From an uncultured Bacteroidota bacterium (GTDB lineage: Bacteria; Bacteroidota; Bacteroidia; Chitinophagales; Chitinophagaceae), in assembly GCA_903837525.1 (NCBI GenBank), contig CAILUU010000020.1:1-64000 (forward strand): a DNA stretch of 64,000 bases, read 5' to 3'. Of the stretch, positions 2,192 to 18,541 are shown piece after piece. Positions within the stretch are counted from its first letter, which is position 1, and the number at the start of each line of letters is the position of its first letter. The position numbers were made by a program, and so were the translations under genes. Under the pieces are notes generated by a model. It saw nothing but the letters and a program-made list of their open reading frames with translations, had not been told where the DNA came from and ran no database searches.

Positions 2192-2343
2192 CGTAAGTAA
2201 ACACAATATTTATATTAAATAGCCGTTTACCTTTTTTAGGAGTACTTTTTTGGAAAAATTAAATAATGGTTTCAGTTACAAATAATGGTTTTAATTCTAA
2301 AAGTCATTATATTTGTTGCTTAACACCCTCAAAGTTAAAAACA

Positions 2344-3645
2344 ATGAAGAATAGATTATTCTTTTTTATAGCTGGAATAGCTATTGTATCCGCATCTTCA
2401 AGCTGTAAAATGCTTGGCGGAAAAAACAAATCTGGTAGTTTACCAAAAGATGGACAAGTGCACGGTATTGAACCAGGCAAGCGTTCAGGTATTGGTCGAC
2501 CATTTGGTATGATATACATTAATCCTGGAACCTTTCACATGGGACCAAATGATGAAGATGTAACGTATGCACTAACTGCACGTAACAAATCCGTATCTAT
2601 TAGTGGTTTTTGGATGGATGCTACAGAAATTACAAACAACGAGTACCGTCAGTTTACGAATTGGGTTAAAGATTCTATTGCTTTAAAATTAATGAATCAT
2701 GTAAAGCAAGGTAGCGATGGTATTGAATATATAGACTGGACAAAACAAAAATCAATCAAGTGGGGAGATAAAGCCACGCTGGAAAAAATTGATGCAATAA
2801 TTGTAACTCCAGATAATAGAATTTTTGGTAAAAAAGAGTTAGATGCTAATAAAATTGTTTACCAATCAGAAACGTTTGATTACAAATCAGCAGCTAATAA
2901 TAGAGATGCAAGCATCCCTCGATCTAAATTTATTATAAAAAAATCAATACCTGTAATGCCCGATTCTTTGTGTTGGATAAGAGATTTTGCTTATTCGTAC
3001 AACGAGCCAATGGCAAAAAAATACAACAATCACCCTGCTTTTGGCAATTACCCTGTGGTTGGAGTAAATTGGAAACAAGCAACTGCTTTCTGTGAGTGGA
3101 GAACCCACTACTTAAACTCTTTTTTAGAGGGCAAAAAGAAAAGTGCTGAAACCGATTTTCGTTTACCAACAGAAGCTCAATGGGAATATGCTGCAAGGGG
3201 CGGTCGTTCTCAAGCTAGCTACCCTTGGGGTGGTTACTACTTACGTAACAAAAAAGGTTGTTTATTAGCTAACTTTAAACCAGGCCGTGGTAACTATCCA
3301 GAAGATGGAGGTTTTTACACCGTAAGAGCAGATGCTTATTGGCCTAATGATTTTGGCTTATACAATATGGCTGGTAATGTTGCAGAATGGACATCTTCTT
3401 TATTTTACGAAGGAGCTTACAATTTTCAACATGATATGAATCCAGATATTCGTTACAATGCTAAGGATACCGATAAACCAAGAGATAAGCGTAAAGTTAT
3501 CCGTGGTGGTAGCTGGAAAGATGTTGGTAACAGATTACAATGTGGAACAAGAGATTATGAGTATCAAGATACTTCAAAATCGTATATTGGTTTCCGTTGT
3601 GTAATTGATTTACCAGCAGTAATAAGTAAAAAAGATAAAAAATAA
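2344..3645 (+). CDS. gldK: T9SS/gliding lipoprotein GldK (PorK)
   Basis: GldK is an outer-membrane lipoprotein that forms the large periplasmic GldK-GldN ring of the type IX secretion system. The frame opens at 2266, but the ATG at 2344 begins a clean lipoprotein signal, with the lipid-attachment Cys at residue 21 in SASSSC, so I start there (433 residues). From about residue 55 the protein is an FGE-sulfatase-like fold: GMIYINPGTFHMG, FWMDATEITNNEY, PVVGVNWKQATAFCEW, RLPTEAQWEYAARGG, GNVAEWTSSL and VIRGGSWKD, ending in YIGFRCV. It is a structural relative of the formylglycine enzyme, not a known catalyst. gldL follows after 201 nt. Confidence 0.93.
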   Translation: MKNRLFFFIAGIAIVSASSSCKMLGGKNKSGSLPKDGQVHGIEPGKRSGIGRPFGMIYINPGTFHMGPNDEDVTYALTARNKSVSISGFWMDATEITNNEYRQFTNWVKDSIALKLMNHVKQGSDGIEYIDWTKQKSIKWGDKATLEKIDAIIVTPDNRIFGKKELDANKIVYQSETFDYKSAANNRDASIPRSKFIIKKSIPVMPDSLCWIRDFAYSYNEPMAKKYNNHPAFGNYPVVGVNWKQATAFCEWRTHYLNSFLEGKKKSAETDFRLPTEAQWEYAARGGRSQASYPWGGYYLRNKKGCLLANFKPGRGNYPEDGGFYTVRADAYWPNDFGLYNMAGNVAEWTSSLFYEGAYNFQHDMNPDIRYNAKDTDKPRDKRKVIRGGSWKDVGNRLQCGTRDYEYQDTSKSYIGFRCVIDLPAVISKKDKK

Positions 3646-3846
3646 ATTTTCCCTACAAACATTAAAATTTTAATTACGAGAGTATTTTTAAAACACCACT
3701 TTTCATTTAACAAAATTGTAACTACATATATACACTTCACGTTGCAATAAAAGATTTATGAAATAATGATGTTTTAAATGTATATTCTTATATATATATA
3801 AACTTTGTAAATAAACATTAACAACCCCATCTAAAACTTAAATTTT

Positions 3847-4593
3847 ATGGCAGGACGTCTTATTGACCGAATCTTAAACATTGGTGTATCTGCAGCAGCG
3901 GTACCAGTACTTTACGGAGCATTACAAAAAATATTGCATGCTCCAAATGCAGATTTTTGGCTTAAATTCGGGTTGCTTACCGAGTGTGTAATCTTTGGTG
4001 CTTATGCGCTACTTTATGTAGTTTCTCCTCCGCCAGAAGCCGCTATTCCGGTAGAAGCAAAAGTTATGGGTGATAGTCCATTAAAAAATATGGATAAAAT
4101 GTTGATGGAAGCAGATATTACACCTACTAGCTTAAAAAAATTAGGTGAAGGGTTTAATAAATTAGGTACAAGTGTATCGGGCATTAGCGATGTAAGCGAT
4201 GTTATAAAAAGTACAACTGATTTTGGAGCAAAAACTAAAGAAGCCACTGCTGCTATAGGCTCTATGGCTACAGCATTTAATGCAAGTGCAGCTACCATGA
4301 CGTCTTTTAACAGTGCAAGTGAAAGTGCAAAAGGCTTTCATGAGCAAGTACAAGTGTTAACCAAAAACTTAGGTTCGTTAAATACAATTTACGAGTTAGA
4401 GCTAAAAGAAAGTAATAATCATTTAAAAGCATTAAATAACTTTTACGGTCAAATGGCACAAGCTAGTCAGACAATGATGGCAAGTGTTGATGATGCACAA
4501 AAAGCAAAAGAGCAAATTGGGGTGTTGGCTAATAACTTGGGTAAATTAAACTCGGTTTATGGCAATATGCTAAGTGCAATGCAAGGAAGATAA
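3847..4593 (+). CDS. gldL: T9SS/gliding motor subunit GldL (PorL)
   Basis: GldL is the inner-membrane stator-like protein that, with GldM, uses the proton gradient to drive type IX secretion and gliding. The 248 residues show two N-terminal membrane helices (about 10-30 and 41-60) and then a long cytoplasmic tail rich in helix-forming repeats. Glu46 lies inside helix 2 (LLTECVIF) and Lys28/His31 lie near the end of helix 1; family studies place proton-path residues at these kinds of positions. The 201-nt gap before it holds an imperfect -7 motif (AAACTTTG, 3800-3807), so an internal promoter is possible. Confidence 0.93.
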   Translation: MAGRLIDRILNIGVSAAAVPVLYGALQKILHAPNADFWLKFGLLTECVIFGAYALLYVVSPPPEAAIPVEAKVMGDSPLKNMDKMLMEADITPTSLKKLGEGFNKLGTSVSGISDVSDVIKSTTDFGAKTKEATAAIGSMATAFNASAATMTSFNSASESAKGFHEQVQVLTKNLGSLNTIYELELKESNNHLKALNNFYGQMAQASQTMMASVDDAQKAKEQIGVLANNLGKLNSVYGNMLSAMQGR

Positions 4594-4603
4594 TAAAGCA
4601 GTT

Positions 4604-4676
4604 GGCGGTTTGCAGTTGGCAGTTTGCAATAAACTACTAAACTTCTAAACCCCTAAACTTCTAAACCTTTCTAAAC
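4604..4676 (+). repeat. Short tandem repeats between gldL and gldM
   Basis: Two kinds of low-complexity repeat fill this spacer. First come alternating GCAGTTGGC and GGTTTGC/AGTTTGC words. Then CTAAACTT, CTAAACCC, CTAAACTT, CTAAACC and CTAAAC follow as five near-copies with a period of about 8. Similar CTAAAC runs occur near 37137-37170 and 47750-47772. Confidence 0.7.
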
Positions 4677-4714
4677 GAAATTATATTAACTAACAACCGT
4701 AAATTAACAATACT

Positions 4715-6205
4715 ATGGCTTTACCTAAAGAGCCCCGGCAGAAGATGATTAACATCATGTATTTGGTACTAACAGCATTGTTGGCACTAAATGTATCGGC
4801 AGAAGTTATTGAAGCCTTTAGAACCGTTGATAAAAGTTTGATTAAATCGAACACTAATTTAGAAACTAGTAACGAGGGACTATTTAAGTCTCTAGCTGCT
4901 AAAGTATCTGAAGCTGGAGTTGATAAAGTAAAACTAGCAAAATGGACTGCCCATGCAGGAACTGCAAAAAAATTATCAGATGATCTAAATGTTTATATCG
5001 AAGGATTAAAGAAAGACTTGAAAACAGCATCTGGTTTAAAAATTGAAAATGGAGTTGAAGATTTTAAAATGGATGACTTAAATGCCTCATCTAGATTAAT
5101 GGACAACGAAAAGAAAGGGAAAGACTTAGATGATAAATTAAAGGCTTATAGAGCCGCTATGTTAGCCATTGATCCTGAACTTGAAGCAGAATTTAAAAAT
5201 ACTTTTCCAGTAGAAGTAGATAATACAAAAGATGCTACAACACCAAGTTTTAGAATGATGCCAACAGTTGCCGCTGTTACGTTGTTAAGTAAATTTCAAA
5301 ACAATGTAAAGAATGGCGAAAATCAAATTGTTGCAGCTTGCCATAGTAAAATTGGACAAGTAAAATTCATTTACGATAAGTTTGCTGCCGTAGTTGGACA
5401 AAGCTCTAACTATGTAATGCCAGGCGATAAAGTAAAAATTACAGCAGGTGTTGGTGCATTTAGCACTCAAGCCCAACCACAAATTACAATTGGTGGTAGT
5501 GGTGCTGCTGTAAATGCTGATGGAATTGCAGAAAGAGAATTTACTGCAGATGGTGGTGGAAACAAATCTGTACCCGTAACTGTTACATATACCAAACCAG
5601 ATGGTACTAAGGAAAGTAAAAGTTATACTATTGAATATACAGTGGGTACGCCCGGCGGGGCTGCTGTAATGTTGGATAAAATGAATGCTTTTTACATAGG
5701 TTTAGAAAATCCTATCACTATTGGTTCTCCAACAGGGTGGGATAAAACAAATGTATCAATGAGTGGAGGTTCTTTATCAGGTTCTGGCGGTAAACGTACA
5801 GTTTCTGTTACCACACCAGGAAAAGCTAGCATTACAGTTACTGCAGATGGAAAATCAAGTACGTTTGAATATAGAGTTTTAAGAGTTCCAGATCCAGTAT
5901 TTAAAATTGGAGACGGTAAACCTCGTCAACCAACTGTTTCTTTAAAAAATCAACAATTTGTAAGAGCCGAATTAGAAAATTTTGTTTACGACACCAAATT
6001 TAGTATAACTAAAGCAACAGTATATTTTTCTGGTGCAGGTTTCCCATCTACTCAAATTGGGTCAATTAACGGAAATGGTTTAGGTGGAATTAGTGGTTTG
6101 TTACAAAGATGTCAACCAGGCTCATCAATTACATTTGATGCTGTAACGGTTACTGGGCCCGGAGGAAGTAGAGTAATTGACGGAAGAACATTTACTTGTT
6201 ATTAA
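4715..6205 (+). CDS. gldM: T9SS/gliding motor subunit GldM (PorM)
   Basis: GldM has one N-terminal membrane helix that packs in the GldL ring and a long periplasmic dimer of four domains that reaches the GldK-GldN ring. The N-terminus MALPKEPRQKMINIMYLVLT is the family signature, followed by the helix to about residue 36 and helical domain D1 (40-215). Beta-rich domains then run to the end with repeated IG and GG turns and a final Cys in RTFTCY. At 496 residues it is close to the usual length of just over 500. It lies 121 nt after gldL and 28 nt before gldN. Confidence 0.93.
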   Translation: MALPKEPRQKMINIMYLVLTALLALNVSAEVIEAFRTVDKSLIKSNTNLETSNEGLFKSLAAKVSEAGVDKVKLAKWTAHAGTAKKLSDDLNVYIEGLKKDLKTASGLKIENGVEDFKMDDLNASSRLMDNEKKGKDLDDKLKAYRAAMLAIDPELEAEFKNTFPVEVDNTKDATTPSFRMMPTVAAVTLLSKFQNNVKNGENQIVAACHSKIGQVKFIYDKFAAVVGQSSNYVMPGDKVKITAGVGAFSTQAQPQITIGGSGAAVNADGIAEREFTADGGGNKSVPVTVTYTKPDGTKESKSYTIEYTVGTPGGAAVMLDKMNAFYIGLENPITIGSPTGWDKTNVSMSGGSLSGSGGKRTVSVTTPGKASITVTADGKSSTFEYRVLRVPDPVFKIGDGKPRQPTVSLKNQQFVRAELENFVYDTKFSITKATVYFSGAGFPSTQIGSINGNGLGGISGLLQRCQPGSSITFDAVTVTGPGGSRVIDGRTFTCY

Positions 6206-6233
6206 TTAAAATAGATGTAATTCATCAAAAAAG

Positions 6234-7283
6234 ATGACTATGAAGAAGTATATAAAATATGTTGTTTTGCTGTTGTGCTTTGGCATTTTTACAGTAAATG
6301 TTGCTGAGGCCCAAAAGAAAAAAGCAAAACCTCGTACAGCCACAAAAAGAACCCCAACAAAGCAGGGAGCTAAGGGTAAAAAGAATGTAAAAGTTACTAC
6401 CCCAACAACTGTCACGGAGCCCGTTGTTGCAGTTGCAGCTATTCCTGCTCCAGCAGTAGAAGATAGTTTACCTGTTCCGGTCGTAAAGAAATCGTTACGT
6501 CCTAATGAAGCAGTTGAATCTAGTAACTATAATGATAAAACACCTTTACCTTACGAGCATTTAAGAGCAGAAGACGCACTTTTTCGCCATAAAATATGGA
6601 GAGAAATTGATACTAGGGAAAAGTTAAATCTACCTTTTAGATATTCAGCAGATGATAACAACGGTAACCAACGTTTTATCTCTATTCTATTAAAAGCAAT
6701 ACAAGATAAAGAAGTAACTGTTTTTGATGCAATGGATGACCGTTTTACTACGCCTATGACAATTGGGGAGGTAGGAAAAAAACTAGGTGGAGACAGTGTG
6801 CCAGTGCCTATATTTGATAGTAATGGTGTACAAACAGGTGTGGTATATAAGAGAAATGAAATTAACCTTGATTCGTTCTATAAGTTTAGAATTAAAGAAG
6901 AAGTTATTTTTGATAAAGAAAGCTCTAGATTATTTTGGAGAATACTAGGTATTGCACCGTTAAAAAGAATCAGAATTGAATCTCAAGGCTTAGATCTTGG
7001 CGAAACAGAATTGTTTTGGGTGTATTATCCAGATATGCGACCAATTTTTTCTAAATATGAAATTTACAATGGTAAAAACTTTGGAGCAAGAATGAGTTGG
7101 GAAGAATTATTTGAAGGCAGAATGTTTTATGGTAGAATAATAAAAAGTACCATTGATAATCCTTATGACAGGTTTATTAAAAACTATCCTGGATTAACAG
7201 ATTACCCAATTTTACAATTGTTAGAAGGTGAAAATATTAAAGATAAAATATTTAACTACGAACAAGATTTGTGGAGTTACTAG
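6234..7283 (+). CDS. gldN: T9SS/gliding protein GldN (PorN)
   Basis: GldN is the periplasmic partner of GldK in the outer-membrane-associated ring. A signal peptide (to about residue 26, VNVAEA) precedes a basic Lys/Thr/Pro-rich linker (27-80). The conserved domain follows, with LPYEHLRAEDALFRHKIWRE near 103, a FDAMDDRFTTPMT segment, and then RLFWRILGIAPLKRI, WVYYPDMRPIF and the C-terminal DYPILQLLEGENIKDKI, all typical of GldN. The ATG at 6240 (MKKYIK) is an equally good start. A strong terminator follows at 7305, so gldN closes the operon. Confidence 0.93.
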   Translation: MTMKKYIKYVVLLLCFGIFTVNVAEAQKKKAKPRTATKRTPTKQGAKGKKNVKVTTPTTVTEPVVAVAAIPAPAVEDSLPVPVVKKSLRPNEAVESSNYNDKTPLPYEHLRAEDALFRHKIWREIDTREKLNLPFRYSADDNNGNQRFISILLKAIQDKEVTVFDAMDDRFTTPMTIGEVGKKLGGDSVPVPIFDSNGVQTGVVYKRNEINLDSFYKFRIKEEVIFDKESSRLFWRILGIAPLKRIRIESQGLDLGETELFWVYYPDMRPIFSKYEIYNGKNFGARMSWEELFEGRMFYGRIIKSTIDNPYDRFIKNYPGLTDYPILQLLEGENIKDKIFNYEQDLWSY

Positions 7284-7453: not shown

Positions 7454-9275
7454 TTACATTTGCAATTGTGGGTATACTTTAAAATAAGCTATAATTATCC
7501 CAGCTCTTTTTTTGCCTATTACTTCGGCTAATTCCTCAACAGTTTTTTCTTTTATTTGCTTTAACGATTTAAACTTTTTTAATAATAAATCAACCGTGTT
7601 TTTTCCAATACCTTCAATCTGCTCAAGTTCATTATTAAAGGCACCTTTACTTCGTAAATCTCTGTGAAAGGTAATGCCAAAAAGATGTACCTCATCTCTA
7701 ACTCGGCGTATTAATTTAAGGCTTTCGCTATCCCAAGGTAATTTTATGGATTGTGTATCTTTTGGGAAAAAAATTTCTTCTTCATTTTTTGCTAAGCCCA
7801 CTACTGAAGTAGTATTGGGTAAGTTTAAACTATGTATACTTTCCATAGCTGCACTTAACTGACCTTTTCCACCATCAATAATAATTAATTGTGGAATAGG
7901 TTGTTGCTCATCAAGTAACCGTTTATAGCGCCTAAACACTATTTCCTTCATGCTAGCAAAATCATTTATTCCTTTTACGGTTTTAATTTTAAAACGCCTA
8001 TAATCGGCTTTACTAGGCTGCCCGTTTTTAAAAACCACACAAGCCCCTACCGGAAAACTTCCCTGAAAATTAGAATTGTCAAAACACTCTATATGTAAAG
8101 GAGTAGCGGTTAATTGCAAATCTTTTTGTAGTTGCACAAGTACCTCTTTTTTTTGAGCTGCAGATTTATCTTCTAAATTCAGCATCTTCTTTTTTATTAA
8201 CTCAAACCTAAAGTGGTTTACATTTTTTTGAGATAGCTGCAAAAGTTTTAGTTTATCTCCACCTTTTGGTGTGGTTAAAAGAATACCAGGCTCAGTATAA
8301 TCAATTTCAAACGGAATAATTAGTTCAGTTGCTTCACTGTCAAATTGTAAACGTAAATCGCTAATAGCAAAAGCTAAAACTTCGGCAGCTGTTTCATCTA
8401 ATTTTTTTTGTAATTGAATAGTTTTTGTTTTAATAATAGTACCATTACTTACTGCCAAATAATTTACATAAGCCGTATTGCCTTCTTCCAAAATAGTAAA
8501 AACATCTACCGTGCCTATTTTAGTATTTACAACCGTATTATGCGTTTCATACTTTTTTAAACGTTCAATTTTCTTTTTTACATGTTCGGCCTTTTCAAAG
8601 TTCATTTGTAGGGCATATTCTTGCATTTCGCTTTTAAAATGTTGTAGTACAGGTTGTAAATTTCCTTTAAGTAAATGGGTTAATTGTTGCAATTCGTTAG
8701 CGTAATCGGTAGAGGTTTGTAACCCTTCGCATGGGCCTTTGCAATTACCCAAATGATACTCCAAACATAGTTTGAATTTTTTTGCTACAATATTTTTATC
8801 CGTCAAATTTAATTTACAGGTACGTAACAAAATAGTTTGCTTAATAAAATTCATTAACTCCTTTACAGAACTTACAGAAGTATAAGGGCCAAAATATGTT
8901 GAGCCATCATTAATTTTTCTTCTCGAAAAAAAAAACTCTAGGAAAGGGCTCTTTTTTTATAACTAAATAGGGATATGTTTTATCATCTTTTAAAGCAATA
9001 TTGTATTTTGGTTGATGTTTTTTTATTAACGTATTTTCTAAAAGTAAAGCCTCGTTTTCGGTATTTACTATGGTAAACTCAATACGCTTGATGCGGCTTA
9101 CTAACTCCATAGTTTTATAGCTTACCTTGTTTTTGCTAAAGTAGGAGCTTACTCGTTTACGTAAATGCTTTGCTTTGCCTACATAAATTAATTCGTTTGC
9201 AGCATTATAATATTTATAAATACCAGGTTGTGTAGGAATGGTATTGGCTAGTATATAAAACTCTTGTGGTGTCAT
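7454..9275 (-). pseudogene. uvrC: Excinuclease ABC subunit C, split by a homopolymer frameshift
   Basis: UvrC makes the dual incision in nucleotide excision repair. The N-terminal part (start ATG at 9275, stop at 8910) holds the GIY-YIG nuclease, with GIYKYYN and LIYVGKAKHLRKR. The rest (7454 to about 8930 in another frame) holds the CLEYHLGNCKGPC segment, the UVR region (FEKAEHVKKKIERLK), the RNase-H-like nuclease with IECFDNSNFQG and IIDGGKGQL, and helix-hairpin-helix motifs near IEGIGKNTVDLL. The frames part in ten consecutive A (8926-8935, plus strand). With nine, the protein would read PRVFFSRRKINDGSTYFGPYT, exactly the family pattern. It may be a sequencing error, a real mutation, or a slippage site. 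Confidence 0.88.
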
Positions 9276-9281
9276 TACAAT

Positions 9282-9872
9282 TTAATAGTCCCAATTAATT
9301 TTTACTTCTTTATCAACTACAAAACTTCCATCGGCATTACTAGTTAAATAAACCATTTTGCAATTGGCATTACTATTCCAGGTAAGTTGTGTAGTTTTAG
9401 TTGTTTTTGTTTTTACTAAATAAATACGTTTTACATTGCCTGTTTCAGGCTCTATGTAAACGGTCCAACTGCTTAAACTTAAGGAATCGGGTAATTTTTT
9501 TATAGGCTCATAGGTAAGGGTTACAGCATCTAAACTTTGGTCAACAAATTTTTTCTCTAAAAATAATTGAATCAAATTAGTTGAATCAATTTCTGGAGTA
9601 AGAAATTCATTTATTGCACTAGGTAAGTCTTCTATTTTTAGCCAGCTACTATCTTTTTTATCCCCTTCAATAAGGTACTGAATTGGATTTAAGCCTTTTT
9701 CTTTTATGGAATAAAGTTGCCCTTTAATATAAATTGTAACTGGGAAAAAGCGTTGCTTAGCTAAAGAATCTGTTGTTATGCTATTTGCAGTTAGGGGTAT
9801 CTTTTTTTCATTTGTTGTACAACTGTTTAACAAAAGCATAAACGCACCTAAAATGGGGACATAAAATTTCAT
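9282..9872 (-). CDS. Hypothetical lipoprotein
   Basis: A 196-residue protein with a lipoprotein signal (LLLNSC, Cys18), so probably anchored in the envelope. The mature part is hydrophilic, with no motif I can name; it includes a PVTIYIKGQLYSI segment near residue 46 and a C-terminal run of alternating polar and hydrophobic strands (WTVYIEPETGNVKRIYLV, MVYLTSNADGSF). This may be a beta-rich fold. It lies 7 nt before uvrC and 80 nt after the barrel gene on the same strand, so it may share their transcript. No function is assigned. Confidence 0.7.
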   Translation of the reverse strand: MKFYVPILGAFMLLLNSCTTNEKKIPLTANSITTDSLAKQRFFPVTIYIKGQLYSIKEKGLNPIQYLIEGDKKDSSWLKIEDLPSAINEFLTPEIDSTNLIQLFLEKKFVDQSLDAVTLTYEPIKKLPDSLSLSSWTVYIEPETGNVKRIYLVKTKTTKTTQLTWNSNANCKMVYLTSNADGSFVVDKEVKINWDY

Positions 9873-9952: not shown

Positions 9953-11455
9953 TTAAAAGCTTTTTGATACGCCAACTTTAAAACCAATATTATATAGTTT
10001 TTCTGAAACAGCTATATTTTTGTTATGGGTACTAAACAATTGGTATCTAAATTGTGGGCCAGCTAAAAAGTTTAAATCGCCAACTTTGTAATTAATGTAG
10101 GCCTCTGCAGCAGTATTCATATTAAATCTTCTTAATAAATAGGATTCATTTACGTAATATTTTCTATCCGAAGAGATTACATTTGGTTTACCGCCAAATA
10201 CATACGTTGGTTGTACAGATCCGCCAACAAATAAATCAAACCTTGCTTTATCTAAAACTTTATAATACCCACCCAACGGAATAGAAAGTTGATAAGTGGT
10301 GTTATGTATTTTATCAATAGCGTTAGTATTGTTAGCAATATAACTAGCTACTGAGCTATACTCAACTGCTTGGGTAGTAGGGTTAATAGTTGCTAAAGTA
10401 GTAGGCGATGGGTGACTTGTAATATTACTAGTGATACCGTAATTCGTTAAATTTAATTGTAATCCAGCTTTTAATTTTACTCGTTTTGAAGTTGCATAGG
10501 CAATATTAAAACCAGTTTCTATATTTAATGCAGCGTTATGCTTCATTGGATTAGCAGCATCAAAATTTGTTGCTCCAATTGTAGGTATGGTTGTATTTGC
10601 TAAAAAAGGGTTAGCATCATATTGTGGGCCAGGGCTCATAGTTCTATAGCCTATACTAGGTGTTGCATAAAATTCCATGCTAGCATTTTTCATCCAATTC
10701 TTCTTCTTTGCATTTTTTTGTTTTGATGCCTCTTGTACAGCTAAATTTAAATTATCTTTTTTGCTTTGTTGCCTAATTTTATTTTCGTTTTGTGGTGATT
10801 TAGTAACAACGCTTTGAAACATATTTTTTGTAGTTGTAACTACCCCATTGTTATTTTTTAATTCGTTGGTAATAAACTCATCAATAGTAGTATTTTCTGA
10901 TGAGGCCTCAATTTTAGTTATACTTGCATCGGTTTGTTTTATACTTGCTTTAGTAACTGAAAGTTTATTTGTTATTGCACCAGAATTTTGTGTTGGGTTA
11001 GTAGTTACAACATAAAAACTAGTAATACTTGCTTTTTTACTATTAACGTTACTTTCTTCACGACTATAGGTAGGTGAACTTACTTTGTTACTGCTAGCTA
11101 CTGAAGTAGACAATGTAGTAGGATTATTATTATTTTTGTTGTTAATTAGTTCTTTTGAGCTATTTATTGAGGTAACTTCTTGTGTATTTTTATTTTCTAA
11201 AGTGGCTAGTATAGTATTATTTTGAGTAGTCTTTTTTTCTGAAGATAAACTAGTAGTAGGGTCAGTATTTTCGTAACCAATAAATAACACTCCCGTAAAT
11301 AAAATTAAACACATAAGCACCGAAGGCCATTTACGACTAGGATGCAAATCGTTATAAATACTGTGCCAAACTCTTTTTGAAGGAATCATTTTAAAGTCAT
11401 CGGCACTTTCCTTTATAAAGCGTTCAAAATTATTTGTATATATTCTCTTTTCCAT
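9953..11455 (-). CDS. Anti-sigma-like N-terminus fused to outer-membrane beta-barrel domain
   Basis: About 500 residues in three parts. A short, charged N-terminus (FERFIKESADDFKMIPS, then RVWHSIYNDLHPSRKWPS) would face the cytoplasm. One membrane helix follows (VLMCLILFTGVLFIGY, residues about 47-62). Then comes a 180-residue disordered region rich in Ser, Thr, Asn and Lys, and a C-terminal domain from about 250 with repeated amphipathic strands ending in VGVSKSF, as in PorT/OmpA-like barrels. It begins 33 nt after an ECF sigma gene. I infer that the N-terminus binds the sigma factor and the protein spans the envelope. The start is the ATG at 11455; a TTG nine bases upstream is less likely. 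Confidence 0.7.
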   Translation of the reverse strand: MEKRIYTNNFERFIKESADDFKMIPSKRVWHSIYNDLHPSRKWPSVLMCLILFTGVLFIGYENTDPTTSLSSEKKTTQNNTILATLENKNTQEVTSINSSKELINNKNNNNPTTLSTSVASSNKVSSPTYSREESNVNSKKASITSFYVVTTNPTQNSGAITNKLSVTKASIKQTDASITKIEASSENTTIDEFITNELKNNNGVVTTTKNMFQSVVTKSPQNENKIRQQSKKDNLNLAVQEASKQKNAKKKNWMKNASMEFYATPSIGYRTMSPGPQYDANPFLANTTIPTIGATNFDAANPMKHNAALNIETGFNIAYATSKRVKLKAGLQLNLTNYGITSNITSHPSPTTLATINPTTQAVEYSSVASYIANNTNAIDKIHNTTYQLSIPLGGYYKVLDKARFDLFVGGSVQPTYVFGGKPNVISSDRKYYVNESYLLRRFNMNTAAEAYINYKVGDLNFLAGPQFRYQLFSTHNKNIAVSEKLYNIGFKVGVSKSF

Positions 11456-11487
11456 TAGGCACAAAAACAGTTAGGTAATCCAAGTAT

Positions 11488-12069
11488 TTATCTTGGTGCA
11501 ACTGCAGCTTGATAAATAATTTTTTCTTTTGGTTTTAGTATTATTTTTTTTCTTATTAAAATTTCTTCTAGCATTGATTTAGCTCTTGTATATTGACTTC
11601 GGCTAGTACTTTCTTCTATATCTAACAACATACCAATCTCCTTATGAGAAAAGCCTTCAATAGCATAAAGATTTAAAACCGTTCTGTACCCAAGTGGTAA
11701 TAATCTAATGCACTCAACCACTTGTTTGGCTTGCATTATTGAAGGAATCATATCTTCTCTTATGTGCAAGCCGTTTGCGTAAGCAATATCTAAACTATCC
11801 GAAAACTTTTTATTCTTTTTTAAAACATTTATACAAGTGTGTACTACAATTCTTCTTATCCAGCCCTCTAGCGATCCTTCGTTTCTATACTGAAACATTT
11901 GTGTGTATACTTTTACAAATCCTTCTTGTAACATATCTTCAGCATCTTCTCTATTTTTTGCAAAGCGATAACACACACTTAGCATTCGGGGGCTAAATCG
12001 ATTATACAAAGCCTCTTGGGCAGATGCATTATTTTTAAGACATCCAGCTATCATTAGCTCTTCAGTCAT
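11488..12069 (-). CDS. ECF-type RNA polymerase sigma factor
   Basis: A 193-residue sigma-70 factor of the extracytoplasmic-function class. Region 2 shows NRFSPRMLSVCYRFAKNRED and AEDMLQEGFVKVY (residues about 23-55). Region 4 shows LLPLGYRTVLNLYAIEGFSH followed by KEIGMLLDIEESTSRSQYTR (about 122-165), the helix-turn-helix for the -35 element. A basic tail follows. It would direct core polymerase to a small envelope-related regulon. The next gene downstream on the same strand is the probable anti-sigma/barrel protein, the usual arrangement for a signal relay. Confidence 0.9.
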   Translation of the reverse strand: MTEELMIAGCLKNNASAQEALYNRFSPRMLSVCYRFAKNREDAEDMLQEGFVKVYTQMFQYRNEGSLEGWIRRIVVHTCINVLKKNKKFSDSLDIAYANGLHIREDMIPSIMQAKQVVECIRLLPLGYRTVLNLYAIEGFSHKEIGMLLDIEESTSRSQYTRAKSMLEEILIRKKIILKPKEKIIYQAAVAPR

Positions 12070-12130
12070 ATAAATTATTTAGTTTCCTTAAAATTAGGAC
12101 AATTTTTGGTGTGAATATGCTGCTTAATAA

Positions 12131-12191: not shown

Positions 12192-14486
12192 TTAAAAATT
12201 ACTTCGGAGTGCAATAATAAAACTTCTGCCTGGTGCCGAAAAGCCAGAAGCAAAATATCGGTAATTTCTATCAAAAAAATTTTCTACACCAAGTTGTACC
12301 TGAAAACCCTTTTTTGCAGTAATGGTAGTTTTAATATTTGTTGTTAACCAGCTTGGCATCCCATCTGCAGTGGCATATTGTGCATTATCTTCTCCATCGG
12401 CGTTATACTCATCAAGTTTTTTCCACCCATTGTATAACAAATAAAACTCTGCATTTATTTTTTTATATTGATAAGTAATACTTGTTTTTCCTAAAGTTGG
12501 TGGAATATGATCCAATGGTTTACGACCTACTTTTTTACTGACTAAACTGTACGATCCATTAGTTTGCTTTTCGTAAATACTAGAGTTCTTTGTATTATCT
12601 GTAATAAAATATCCTTTTGTATAGGTTAGCGTACTTCTTATGATCAAGTTTTTTATTACTTCAGCATCTACACCAACACTAAAGCCATACACATTGGCTT
12701 TGTTTATATTTTGATTTGCTAATACTTGGCTTTTAACACCATTGTATAAAATAGAGTCTTGTCCGTTTAATTTATAAGGTGCTTTTAGTATAGCATTTCT
12801 AAATAAATTGTAAAAACTTGTAAACTCAAAAGTTATTTTGTTATCAATCTTTTGCATAAAACTAATATCAATATTATACGTATACTCTGGTTTTATAGCT
12901 GCATTAGGAACTACCACTTGGCTTGCTAATGTGCTGCTTTCAAATACTTTTGCCAAATCATCAATGTTTGGGGCCCTAAATGCAGATGAAATAGCAAGCT
13001 TTATACTTGTATTTTTAGTGTGATTGTATACCAAGCCTATATTGCCTGTAACTGCAAAATTAGTTTGCGTAATAGCAGTATCTGGTAAGTTAAAAAATGA
13101 GTTATCTAACACATTACTTTTTAAACGTACGGCTTGTAAACGAATACCATCGTTTAGTATTAATTTTTTATTATTGAAATGATGGGTGTGTTGTGCATAC
13201 ACACCAAAATTATTTAGTGTATTTTTTCCATCCGGATAACGAGTGTCTAATTTTGAAACAACGCCTGTATTTAAATTTTTGAGTGTAGCGGCAGATTTTA
13301 CGTCATTCAATTGCATATCTAAACCAACTGTTAATTCGTTGTTTGTCCACTTTTTTATTGCATTTAGTGTTGTGCCAAAAACGTTTACTTTTTCTATTCT
13401 ACTTTCAAATCTATCGTAGCGTTTAAACTCTCTTGTTTGCCTACTTTCTTCAATGGCTTGATAATTAATATTGGCCTTGATACTATTAAAAAAACCTTTT
13501 GTATTTGCATCAAAAGTGTAAGCACCCATTACCCTTTTTTGAGGGCCATAATACCATTGGGCAAAGCGTAAAGTTGTTCCAATGCTACCACCAAAGTTTC
13601 TGGTGTCTTGTAGCCTATCGTACCTAGGTACATTGTTGCTGTTAGAGATTTGCAAATTTAAAGAATGACTTATTTTATTTGATGGGTTATATAAAATTTT
13701 TTGAGTAATATCCCATTGTTTGTAGCCAGAAAATTTTTGAACTCTATCCTCCTCATTAATCAATAAAGTATCTATACCATTGATCGTGGCTACATAGGTA
13801 CTTCTTCTTCCAAAATTTGGATACTTACGATTATAGGAATCACCCATTTTCATATCGCCAAAGTCGCTAAAATTATATAGTTGCATCCAAGCAATTTTTT
13901 TATTGCCAATACTAGCATCTACATGTATTGTTTTTTCATTATTACTAGTATTGTGTCTTACAAATCCTGTACCTACAACTAACGTGTTAGTTGTTGAAGA
14001 AAGAATGGGTGCTTTAGTTATTAAATGCACAATTCCGCCTAAAGCATCGCTACCGTAAATGGTGCTAGATGGACCATACATTACTTCTACTCGGCTTAAA
14101 GAATTTTGATCGGTTGTTATTGCATTTTGTAGATGCCCACTTCTATAAATTGCGTTATTCATTCTTACTCCATCAATAACTAGTAAGACTCTACTAGCTT
14201 CAAATCCACGTATTACAGGACTACTACCGCCTTGCTGGCTTTTTTGTACAAATATTTTACCCGTATTTAGTAATAAATCTCCAATGTTTTGTGTATTGGC
14301 GTCTGCAATTGTTTTTGATGTAAGCACATCAATTTTTTGTGCTATATTTTTTTTACTTTGAGATATATTACTTGCAGAAATAACGACTTCCTCTAAACTA
14401 ATCTCTTTTTTTGTTGAGTCTATTTGTTGTGCAATACTTGTATGCATTTGGATAAATGCAATAGCAAGTATATAAAGTTTTTTCAT
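12192..14486 (-). CDS. TonB-dependent outer-membrane receptor, haem/haemoglobin type
   Basis: A 764-residue receptor that imports a large ligand through a gated 22-strand barrel with energy from TonB. A signal peptide ends near SIAQ. The plug domain (about 45-160) has IRGFEASRVLLVIDGVRMNN and RSGHLQNAIT, then VEVMYGPSSTIYGSDALGG, a pattern seen in haemoglobin/transferrin-type receptors. The barrel fills the remainder and ends in an aromatic residue (ALRSNF). The nearby haem-binding-domain gene supports haem as ligand, but specificity is inferred. A dyad AATTGT-aaa-ACAATT (14509-14523) lies 23 nt before the start and may be an operator. Confidence 0.88.
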   Translation of the reverse strand: MKKLYILAIAFIQMHTSIAQQIDSTKKEISLEEVVISASNISQSKKNIAQKIDVLTSKTIADANTQNIGDLLLNTGKIFVQKSQQGGSSPVIRGFEASRVLLVIDGVRMNNAIYRSGHLQNAITTDQNSLSRVEVMYGPSSTIYGSDALGGIVHLITKAPILSSTTNTLVVGTGFVRHNTSNNEKTIHVDASIGNKKIAWMQLYNFSDFGDMKMGDSYNRKYPNFGRRSTYVATINGIDTLLINEEDRVQKFSGYKQWDITQKILYNPSNKISHSLNLQISNSNNVPRYDRLQDTRNFGGSIGTTLRFAQWYYGPQKRVMGAYTFDANTKGFFNSIKANINYQAIEESRQTREFKRYDRFESRIEKVNVFGTTLNAIKKWTNNELTVGLDMQLNDVKSAATLKNLNTGVVSKLDTRYPDGKNTLNNFGVYAQHTHHFNNKKLILNDGIRLQAVRLKSNVLDNSFFNLPDTAITQTNFAVTGNIGLVYNHTKNTSIKLAISSAFRAPNIDDLAKVFESSTLASQVVVPNAAIKPEYTYNIDISFMQKIDNKITFEFTSFYNLFRNAILKAPYKLNGQDSILYNGVKSQVLANQNINKANVYGFSVGVDAEVIKNLIIRSTLTYTKGYFITDNTKNSSIYEKQTNGSYSLVSKKVGRKPLDHIPPTLGKTSITYQYKKINAEFYLLYNGWKKLDEYNADGEDNAQYATADGMPSWLTTNIKTTITAKKGFQVQLGVENFFDRNYRYFASGFSAPGRSFIIALRSNF

Positions 14487-14508
14487 TTATACTTTTTGAT
14501 AATAAAAA

Positions 14509-14523
14509 AATTGTAAAACAATT
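14509..14523. promoter_or_regulatory. Dyad upstream of the haem-type TonB receptor
   Basis: AATTGT and ACAATT flank AAA, a perfect 6-bp dyad just before the receptor start on the minus strand. It could bind a regulator such as a Fur-family protein, but no regulator gene is adjacent and the arms are AT-rich. Confidence 0.25.
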
Positions 14524-14554
14524 TATCGCTCTACATTTTTAAAAATAAAAATTA

Positions 14555-15070
14555 TCAAAGCGTATTTGGTGGGGGAGTAGCAATTTCTATACTTACCGTT
14601 AATATATTTTGTGTAGGTATAAAATATTTTATTTTGGGCGATAAAAAAAATAGCAGTAGCAGATTTGAATTGTTTTGGGAGAGTAGTAGTGCAGGTGAAA
14701 GAAATTGAGTTATTAAGAGGTGCAAAGGCTTATCCGTATTACTTTGATTGCCTAAAGCCAAGAATAATTTTTGCTTTATTTCTTTTTCTGCACTATCAAA
14801 TAAGCCACTTATTACTAACGAATCATTTTTTTGTGTTACTTCTTTTACATCAAATAACTCACCCTGTACAATTAATTCTTTCCCTTGCTCCATCCAGTGT
14901 ATGTTCTTTTTTAAAAGCGTAATGGTTAATAACGAACACGCTTCAAGTTTTTCCTCCATTTCCGCTTTAATGCATTGTTGTTTTACTAAAAAATAAACAC
15001 AAACTAGCATGGGCATTAAAACCATTGTTAGTAAAGGAAAAGCAAAAATATTTTTATTGTATTTAAACAT
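14555..15070 (-). CDS. Small single-helix membrane protein, unknown function
   Basis: A 171-residue protein with one strong N-terminal membrane helix (LLTMVLMPMLVCVYFLVKQQ, about 14-33). The domain after it begins with a KAEMEEKLEACSL helix and continues through beta-like segments such as KELIVQGELFDV and SLVISGLFD, ending in a hydrophobic stretch and Pro-rich tail. I do not recognise a family. It lies 19 nt after the haem-binding protein gene and 68 nt before the haem-type receptor, so a role linked to that receptor is a fair guess. Its sequence resembles the small accessory proteins often found before such receptors in Bacteroidota. Confidence 0.6.
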   Translation of the reverse strand: MFKYNKNIFAFPLLTMVLMPMLVCVYFLVKQQCIKAEMEEKLEACSLLTITLLKKNIHWMEQGKELIVQGELFDVKEVTQKNDSLVISGLFDSAEKEIKQKLFLALGNQSNTDKPLHLLITQFLSPALLLSQNNSNLLLLFFLSPKIKYFIPTQNILTVSIEIATPPPNTL

Positions 15071-15089
15071 TTAACTGCACTTATTTTGC

Positions 15090-15593
15090 TTAGGGTTGGG
15101 TTGGTCGCTTTTTTAAACTATCCGCTGGGTAATGTGCTTCTATACTATCTCTTAATGCATTAGCCCAATTGGTAATTATTTCTTTTTGTTGAGTATTAAG
15201 TTTCGCCTTTTTATGTATGTAGGTATAGGATTCTAGGGGCATTTCATTTTCACTAATTTCATTGCTTATTTCTTCTAGTTTTTTATATTGCCGCCCAATT
15301 TTATAACTACTAAACATACTAAAATTTAATTCTTTTTTACCCTCTTTTATATGATCATTTAGCCACCAAGCTATTGGCTGTATATTGGCGTACCACGGGT
15401 AATTAGTATGGTTACTGTGGCAATCGTAGCAACTTGTTACTAAAATAGTTTGCACCTCATTTGGTACTGCATATTTTGTTGTAATGTCGTTTTCAGCAAG
15501 GTCTTTACTATTATTTTTTGTTGGTCGTATAAATTGAATAACAATAAACGCTATTAATAAAATTTGTGCAAATCGTTTCAATATTAATTTCAT
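15090..15593 (-). CDS. Haem-binding domain protein (CXXCH)
   Basis: A 167-residue protein with an N-terminal membrane helix or uncleaved signal (residues 5-24) and one c-type haem attachment motif, CYDCHS (about 55-60), followed by NYPWYANIQPIAWWLNDHI and KEGKKELNFSMFSSY. This layout matches the haem-binding domain family of Bacteroidota (PF14376 in my memory), which holds a single covalent haem in the periplasm. It starts 9 nt after gpmI on the same strand and precedes the haem-receptor pair. The role may be electron transfer or redox sensing; the substrate is unknown. Confidence 0.82.
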   Translation of the reverse strand: MKLILKRFAQILLIAFIVIQFIRPTKNNSKDLAENDITTKYAVPNEVQTILVTSCYDCHSNHTNYPWYANIQPIAWWLNDHIKEGKKELNFSMFSSYKIGRQYKKLEEISNEISENEMPLESYTYIHKKAKLNTQQKEIITNWANALRDSIEAHYPADSLKKRPTQP

Positions 15594-17238: not shown

Positions 17239-17616
17239 ATGAAACAGTTTTTAATTTTAATCTCCATAGTAGGGTTATTTTCCTTTACAAAATCTATTGG
17301 TTTTGATGAAGTTATTATTGCCTTAAAAGAAGGGAATGCTAGTAAAGTGGCTCAACAATTTGATAAAACTGTTGAAATTTCAATTCCAACTAAAAGTGAT
17401 TCTTATAGTAAAACACAGGCCGAAATGATTTTAAAAGACTTTTTTAGTGCCAATGGGGTTAAAAATTTTACCGTTATACACAAGGGAGAAAACAATGGAT
17501 CGAAGTACTGCATAGGAAATTTAATAACCCGTAATGGTACCTTTAGAACAACTATTTATATGAAACAAAAAGCCGATAAACAACTTATACAGGAAATTAG
17601 TTTTGAAGCGGCATAA
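17239..17616 (+). CDS. DUF4783 family secreted protein
   Basis: A 125-residue protein with a signal peptide (to about residue 18). A compact domain follows that resembles the NTF2-like fold of DUF4783: FDEVIIALKEGNASKVAQQF, then DKTVEISIPTKSDSYSKTQA, then EMILKDFF and the strands FTVIHKG, YCIGNL and FRTTIYMK. Members lie directly before nadC in many Bacteroidota, as here. The ligand and role are unknown. A terminator follows at 17640. Confidence 0.82.
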   Translation: MKQFLILISIVGLFSFTKSIGFDEVIIALKEGNASKVAQQFDKTVEISIPTKSDSYSKTQAEMILKDFFSANGVKNFTVIHKGENNGSKYCIGNLITRNGTFRTTIYMKQKADKQLIQEISFEAA

Positions 17617-17639
17617 CTAAAAAATATTTTTTACCAGAT

Positions 17640-17667
17640 AGCTCCAAAATTTTTGGAGCTTTTTTTA
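17640..17667 (+). terminator. Rho-independent terminator after the DUF4783 gene
   Basis: AGCTCCAAAA (17640-17649) pairs perfectly with TTTTGGAGCT (17651-17660) and is followed by seven T. It separates the DUF4783 gene from nadC, which has its own -7 element 11 bp further on. Confidence 0.88.
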
Positions 17668-17677
17668 TGTACTTTCT

Positions 17678-17685
17678 TAGCTTTG
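17678..17685 (+). promoter_or_regulatory. -7 element abutting nadC
   Basis: TAGCTTTG matches TAnnTTTG and ends only 4 nt before the nadC ATG at 17690, directly behind a terminator. The implied transcript would start at or within a base or two of the start codon. Confidence 0.55.
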
Positions 17686-17689
17686 TTTT

Positions 17690-18541
17690 ATGAAGTACGA
17701 TGAACAATTACAACATCTTATAAAAAATGCACTTGCCGAAGATATTGGAGATGGAGATCATTCTACCTTATCTAGTATTGATGCAAATGCAAAAGGAAAA
17801 GCTATTTTAAAAATTAAAGAAGATGGAATTTTAGCTGGGGTAGAAGTGGCTAAAAAAATATTTACTTATGTACAACCCAACATCCTCTTTACTGCTTATA
17901 AAAAAGATGGCGACCAAATGAAATTTGGCGAAATTGCTTTTGGTATAGAGGCTAATATACATACAATTTTACAAGCCGAACGATTGGTGTTAAACACTAT
18001 GCAACGAATGAGCGGCATTGCAACATTAACAAAAAAGTTTACCGATAAATTAAAAGGGTATAAAACAAAACTATTAGATACCAGAAAAACTACACCTAAT
18101 TTTAGATTGTTAGAAAAAGAAGCTGTTAAAATAGGTGGAGGAATAAACCATAGATTTGGATTGTATGATATGATTATGTTAAAAGATAACCATATTGATT
18201 ATTGTGGCGGAATTGAAAAAGCAATCAACAAGGCATACGACTATATACAATCTAAAAAAATGGGTTTAAAAATTGAAGTAGAAACAAGAAGCCTTGAAGA
18301 TGTGGAAAAAGTGATGGCTATTGGTAAAGTAAATAGAATAATGTTAGATAATTTTACCCCAGAAAAAATTGTTGAGGCATTACAAATTATTAAGGGAAAA
18401 TACGAAACAGAAGCTAGTGGAGGAATACACTTTGATAATATTGAAAGCTACGCTGATACTGGTGTTGATTACATTAGCAGCGGTGCAATAATACACCAAG
18501 CCAAAAGTTTAGATTTAAGTTTAAAAGCGGTGGTAATGTAA
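17690..18541 (+). CDS. nadC: Nicotinate-nucleotide diphosphorylase (quinolinate phosphoribosyltransferase)
   Basis: NadC joins quinolinate and PRPP and releases CO2 to give nicotinate mononucleotide, the entry to NAD. The 283-residue protein shows the family landmarks: ALAEDIGDGDHST (about 14-26), NTMQRMSGIATLTKKF (103-118), LLDTRKTTPNFRLLEKEAV (127-145), GGGINHRFGLYDMIMLKDNH (148-167), and the barrel end EASGGIHFDNI with VDYISSGAI. The glutamine-hydrolysing NAD synthetase at 21660 completes the same pathway. A -7 element ends 4 nt before the ATG. Confidence 0.96.
   Translation: MKYDEQLQHLIKNALAEDIGDGDHSTLSSIDANAKGKAILKIKEDGILAGVEVAKKIFTYVQPNILFTAYKKDGDQMKFGEIAFGIEANIHTILQAERLVLNTMQRMSGIATLTKKFTDKLKGYKTKLLDTRKTTPNFRLLEKEAVKIGGGINHRFGLYDMIMLKDNHIDYCGGIEKAINKAYDYIQSKKMGLKIEVETRSLEDVEKVMAIGKVNRIMLDNFTPEKIVEALQIIKGKYETEASGGIHFDNIESYADTGVDYISSGAIIHQAKSLDLSLKAVVM

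Follow-up and report, generated by a model that had tools for sequence, protein, structure and literature searches.

Can a single polypeptide relay an outer-membrane signal to an ECF sigma factor? In the FecI-FecR-FecA system, such a signal passes through a separate anti-sigma factor and a TonB-dependent transducer that carries a signalling domain at its N-terminus. The locus studied here lies in a 64,000-nucleotide stretch of DNA from an uncultured member of the Chitinophagaceae, which we call the window. It contains an ECF sigma gene that is followed 32 bases downstream, on the same (-) strand, by a gene for a 500-residue protein, and a sequence-only reading had proposed that this protein acts as a one-chain relay. 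The locus would resemble FecI-FecR-FecA in passing an outer-membrane signal to an ECF sigma factor but differ in using one chain; the sigma-adjacent protein gave no FecR match in Pfam and has a barrel. We put the probability that the pair is a Dma-type (EcfO-Reo-like) sigma/anti-sigma system at roughly 0.85.

Pfam analysis of the 193-residue sigma factor identified sigma regions 2 and 4. For the barrel gene, we set aside the TTG start at 11464 given in the open reading frame list for the ATG at 11455, which lines up with the starts of relatives in a 30-row alignment. The features of the locus are collected in Table 1. The encoded protein has a helical N-terminus (residues 1-41), a membrane helix, a mostly disordered linker and an OmpA-like barrel, in that order. 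AlphaFold2, supplied with a 29-row alignment, returned a model with a mean pLDDT of 66 and a pTM of 0.50, which is silent on the placement of the domains relative to the membranes, and predicted helices at residues 9-20 and 27-37 within the N-terminus. Hydropathy reached 1.92 at residue 43, while the next best scanning position scored 0.48; this single peak and the modelled helix at 39-63 bear out the one membrane helix proposed earlier.

Table 1 Features of the sigma/anti-sigma locus, in window coordinates
Feature	Coordinates	Strand	Evidence
ECF sigma factor gene, 193 aa	11488..12069	-	PF04542 E 1.2e-15, PF08281 E 3.7e-11
Dual membrane-spanning anti-sigma-like protein, 500 aa	9953..11455	-	Start match with relatives and domain layout
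Residues 1-41, candidate sigma-binding N-terminus	11333..11455	-	30-row alignment; E11, P25, S26, W30 conserved
Residues 42-64, single membrane helix	11264..11332	-	Hydropathy and AlphaFold2 helix 39-63
Residues 67-253, linker, mostly predicted disordered, helix at 228-247	10697..11257	-	pLDDT and low conservation
Residues 254-500, OmpA-like outer-membrane barrel	9956..10696	-	PF13568, AlphaFold2, Foldseek, VIA-align
Residues 421-446, barrel loop 3, predicted outward-facing	10118..10195	-	Conservation equal to strands
Lipoprotein gene, 196 aa, probable third operon gene	9282..9872	-	Family member between barrel gene and uvrC, 19/19
Promoter-like footprint GCAGC-N17-TGTC before sigma gene	12098..12123	-	15/21 upstream regions; recovered by pattern search

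Residues 64 and 258 bound a linker of 193 residues, and in the model pLDDT fell below 50 at 67-220, 222-226, 228-232 and 281-303. It had been described as Ser/Thr/Asn-rich, which is true of the window protein (44%) but is not a family trait, since the linkers of 28 relatives contain 17-38% Ser/Thr/Asn over lengths of 130-281 residues. The linker and its helix at 228-247 are the least conserved of all regions. The C-terminal barrel that the sequence-only reading had also expected was recovered by three routes: PF13568 matched with an E value of 4.7e-7, AlphaFold2 gave a barrel at residues 254-500 with pLDDT mostly above 80 apart from 281-303, and VIA-align compared it with the OprF, NspA and OmpA barrels and a designed barrel at Z scores of 16-18. 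At E 0.01, PF13568 was found in 21 of the 29 members of one alignment and in 16 of the 24 in another, which leaves eight members of each below this threshold, three of the 24 being short proteins. NCBIfam returned nothing meaningful for the window protein, and an anti-sigma model matched one of 24 wider family members. A search of the genome contigs with the full-length window protein gave 133 stretches that fit a pattern, several of the patterns sitting in the variable linker, and tblastn confirmed none of them. A profile of the N-terminus found one copy in the source genome at E < 0.01; the second-best match there (E 0.018) lay mainly over the helix region.

We sought relatives of the N-terminus within the window's phylum. 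With the first 66 residues as query, 29 of the 198 genomes searched from the order yielded relatives, and 26 of these genomes belong to the window's own family. Among the 33 matches, 30 had loci, of which one is the window itself and one stops at a contig edge. A sigma gene lay directly upstream and on the same strand at every one of these loci (30/30), with a gap of -46 to +88. Across the phylum, the N-terminal profile matched in 73 of 296 genomes at E 0.01, and we inspected 23 of 30 loci, namely those from places not yet covered. All 23 have a sigma gene upstream; 16 encode proteins of 389-553 residues and seven encode proteins of 225-259 residues. A third set of loci, mostly from the same genomes as these 23, gave the same result (20/20). 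Twelve additional places were found with long frames, and a sigma gene was present at 11; the twelfth was a weak match, apparently an ABC transporter hit by chance. None of the 12 long-frame regions contained a natural fusion of sigma and anti-sigma factor, the sigma gene being separate in 11. The linkage and conservation at the order and phylum levels exceed chance, and the expectation of a conserved N-terminus linked to sigma genes held at 30/30, 23/23 and 11/12 loci. Three of the short relatives (L150, L151 and L157; 225-249 residues) share the N-terminal segment and the membrane helix and are encoded behind a sigma gene. The Pfam barrel was absent from these three proteins, which are scattered over several places of the sigma tree. 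Since the three short sigma-linked proteins that were checked lack the Pfam barrel, we conclude that the N-terminus is a module that accompanies sigma genes whether or not a barrel is attached. In one genome, two such sigma/anti-sigma pairs stand in tandem (L141:8211-11818).

Within the N-terminal segment, W30 was present in 30/30 and 24/24 rows of two alignments. The sequence-only reading had singled out WHSIYNDLHPSRKWPS as a candidate sigma-binding or juxtamembrane motif. Its first part is broadly kept, but the stretch as a whole is not, its second W appearing in 83% of 24 close rows, and the most conserved core also takes in E11, P25 and S26, residues that precede WHSIYNDLHPSRKWPS. Mean conservation of the segment before the membrane helix was 0.597, on a par with the barrel strands. 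A search of solved structures with the N-terminal profile gave eight matches, every one at E 0.24 or worse. We propose from sequence that residues 1-41 would bind and hold the sigma factor. With that step conditional, conservation, sigma linkage and the modelled barrel support the one-chain relay as a plausible reading.

This design is already published, in the Dma family and in EcfO-Reo. Dma proteins are described as having an N-terminal anti-sigma domain, a membrane helix, a disordered tether and a C-terminal barrel, and as adjoining ECF21 sigma factors; the same account places them solely in Bacteroidota and names Dma1/Das1 and Dma2/Das2 in Bacteroides thetaiotaomicron (PMC13088901). The window protein shares the membrane helix, the long disordered tether, the C-terminal barrel and the ECF sigma gene next door, and its conserved sigma-linked N-terminus is a candidate equivalent of the anti-sigma domain. 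It differs in that the pair belongs to another lineage and lies beside uvrC and gldKLMN, and no equivalent of Dma3, to which a sigma domain is fused, was seen among the loci here. In the EcfO-Reo system of Phocaeicola vulgatus and B. fragilis, a sigma gene is followed by an anti-sigma factor said to end in a C-terminal barrel and to extend from the cytoplasm as far as the surface, and interruption of the anti-sigma factor switches the regulon on (PMC9308784, PMC13114119). The window locus has the same order of a sigma gene and a barrel-bearing, probably spanning anti-sigma-like protein; whereas NigD lipoproteins belong to the EcfO-Reo regulon, the window locus has an adjacent lipoprotein gene. 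For both the Dma and the EcfO-Reo systems, genetic evidence is reported that the anti-sigma factor restrains its sigma factor (PMC13088901, PMC9308784, PMC13114119); in the Dma family, its loss is described as releasing the sigma factor and altering vesicles or the envelope.

We compared kinship with Bacteroides sp. GM023, a stand-in for the B. thetaiotaomicron Dma/Das systems whose genome was reached via a 16S primer pattern. The sigma profile scored 169.6 and 162.4 bits for two GM023 genes and at most 74.9 bits for the other 31 of 33 matches. Each of the two top genes is followed by a gene whose product has a single membrane helix near the N-terminus and matches a Pfam barrel family (PF13568, E 3.3e-6, for the first; PF13505, E 5.7e-6, just under its curated cut-off, for the second), and by this gene layout we take the two sigma factors as Das-type. 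When the window family was compared with the first GM023 protein by profile, the barrels aligned at E 5e-9 and the N-termini aligned in the same register but weakly (E 7e-5, probability 63%); in a separate search, the N-terminal similarity to the GM023 proteins was again weak (E 0.7 and below the cut). In a tree of 63 sigma factors, the window group splits from six other GM023 sigmas with support of 92/93, but with very long outgroup branches and a bootstrap that did not reach convergence. The profile scores and the tree group the window sigma with the two outstanding GM023 sigmas. Since those two pair together (100/99), the window sigma is not a special orthologue of either. The order of genes at the GM023 locus L135 (sigma, barrel protein, a small protein of unknown function and two more genes) fits the dma2 operon as described (PMC13088901), which it may represent. 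An assignment of GM023 L084 as dma1 from locus numbers was dropped, as PMC13088901 gives nigD1 as bt_4005. Because the design is in print and the top GM023 sigma genes precede the same layout, we place the window pair with the published Dma/Reo kind. The published accounts we drew on concern gut Bacteroides and Phocaeicola, and the window pair represents another lineage of Bacteroidota in which the gene neighborhood is stable within the family. Relative to those accounts, the lipoprotein third gene, the uvrC/gldKLMN synteny, the promoter-like footprint and a conserved loop 3 appear to be additions. The fixed parts (the E11-W30 segment, loop 3, the lipoprotein and the footprint) offer handles on what envelope-spanning anti-sigma factors sense.

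Sequence and prediction give the order of the genes and of the domains, their conservation, the barrel fold and the promoter-like footprint, and from this we infer how sigma binding, topology, release, trigger and regulon may fit together. The short helical N-terminus would tie the sigma factor to the inner membrane, while the flexible tether would bridge the periplasm to an OmpA-like barrel seated in the outer membrane. Upon disturbance of the outer membrane, or binding of a ligand at its surface, the hold on the sigma factor would be lost through cleavage or a pull on the tether, and the freed sigma factor would transcribe its own operon and other envelope genes. Self-regulation is suggested by the footprint before the sigma gene: 15 of 21 upstream regions carry GCAGC-N15-18-TGTC at -52 to -62 relative to the sigma start, compared with a mean of 0.03 and at most one region in 500 single-base shuffles, which ignore the kinship of the sequences. 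The DNA flanking the footprint is without visible conservation. When 60 family genomes were searched irrespective of position, the tight pattern was found at 30 loci, 29 of them placeable, and five of the 29 lie before the same sigma gene; the other sites are inside genes or ahead of mixed genes. The window's own footprint fits the looser pattern only, which has 18 sites in the genome, four of them outside genes near a start codon. The footprint could also be used by another sigma factor.

Within the Dma-type class, we somewhat favor outer-membrane stress as the signal. EcfO-Reo is induced by two envelope-directed toxins and has been proposed as a sensor of outer-membrane stress (PMC9308784, PMC13114119). 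That unrelated envelope-damaging agents act on it speaks against a second, possible but less probable account within the same class, in which the barrel, instead of sensing stress in general, recognizes one particular molecule at the surface (a glycan, a part of LPS or the operon's lipoprotein). Some features of the barrel do lean toward such a specific receptor. Conservation was 0.598 for loop 3, equal to that of the strands (0.53-0.68), and nearly so for loop 4 (0.572), unlike loops 1 and 2 (0.384 and 0.423); these values were computed on 24 of 29 rows after five distant rows were dropped. From loop lengths and the N-terminal tether, the loops, including loop 3, would face outward, but this topology is itself deduced, and loop conservation may stem from folding or barrel assembly. 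For Dma2, a glycan of unknown identity was proposed as the signal by its authors (PMC13088901), and at the loci considered here every one of the 19 regions that bear uvrC also has a member of the lipoprotein family with the pair.

The latter count comes from 20 family regions picked from the hits. In 19 of the 20, uvrC lies downstream of the pair, and in each of the 19, one gene of similar size precedes uvrC. Together with the window's gene these make up one family: a profile built from nine recovered the other eleven at E 1.3e-16 or better. A simple lipobox test was passed by 16 of the 20, and the remaining four have a cysteine after a hydrophobic stretch. By its position, the lipoprotein gene is probably co-operonic with the sigma/anti-sigma pair. 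A further difference from the Dma systems lies here, as no similarity was detected between this lipoprotein family and the gene in third place at GM023 locus L135. On the other side of uvrC, at 2266-7283 (+) and convergent to uvrC and the sigma/anti-sigma locus, lies a gldKLMN-like type IX secretion core operon. Pfam identified GldL, GldM and GldN there and, where GldK would be expected, a protein with an FGE-sulfatase domain, which we read as GldK; a gldN relative is present in 16 of the 20 family regions. A more speculative extension, to which we give a small chance, is an ancient three-part surveillance of the outer membrane made of the sigma factor, a spanning anti-sigma factor whose conserved loop points outward, and a lipoprotein dedicated to the system and encoded in the same operon. 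Loop 3 would then read either this lipoprotein or a single fixed molecule at the surface; the lipoprotein would feed back on the sigma factor, possibly on behalf of the type IX core (gldKLMN).

Outside the Dma-type class, the protein might be an ordinary outer-membrane protein whose helix is a signal peptide, cleaved off along with a long leading segment so that no chain would cross both membranes, and whose sigma neighborhood reflects expression control only. A barrel needs export, and a helix near the N-terminus could act as the export signal. We nonetheless consider this improbable: the segment that precedes the helix ranks with the best-conserved regions of the protein and its W30 is invariant, the same segment recurs in short proteins behind sigma genes (7/23 loci), the three checked being without a Pfam barrel, and published relatives work as anti-sigma factors (PMC13088901, PMC9308784). 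Least probable of all is a classical three-part system in which the TonB-dependent receptor encoded at 12192-14486 transduces for the window sigma factor: 122 bases separate its gene from the sigma gene, which follows on the same strand, and the receptor resembles haem receptors, below curated cut-offs, but Pfam finds in it a plug (from residue 45) and a barrel only, with no signalling domain, and a full-length relative stands next to the pair in just four of 20 family regions (L121, L125, L126 and L134), which counts against it as a fixed partner.

Several further features of the neighborhood were observed. The window uvrC, at 7454-9275 (-), is read in two frames owing to a one-base shift near 8854-8910, whereas the frames of two relatives are intact; the split is either an assembly error or a true break. 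Upstream of the sigma gene, the stretch at 12192-15593 (-) encodes the TonB-dependent receptor, an unknown 171-residue protein and a Haem_bd protein, a possible haem cluster. Lastly, a gene for a DUF4783 protein and nadC are found at 17239-18541 (+), in the vicinity of the window pair, and at L135:3075-4308 (+) the same two genes directly precede one of the two GM023 pairs, with a different orientation and distance. A shared ancestry of this position beside the pair in the window and in GM023 is only suggested.
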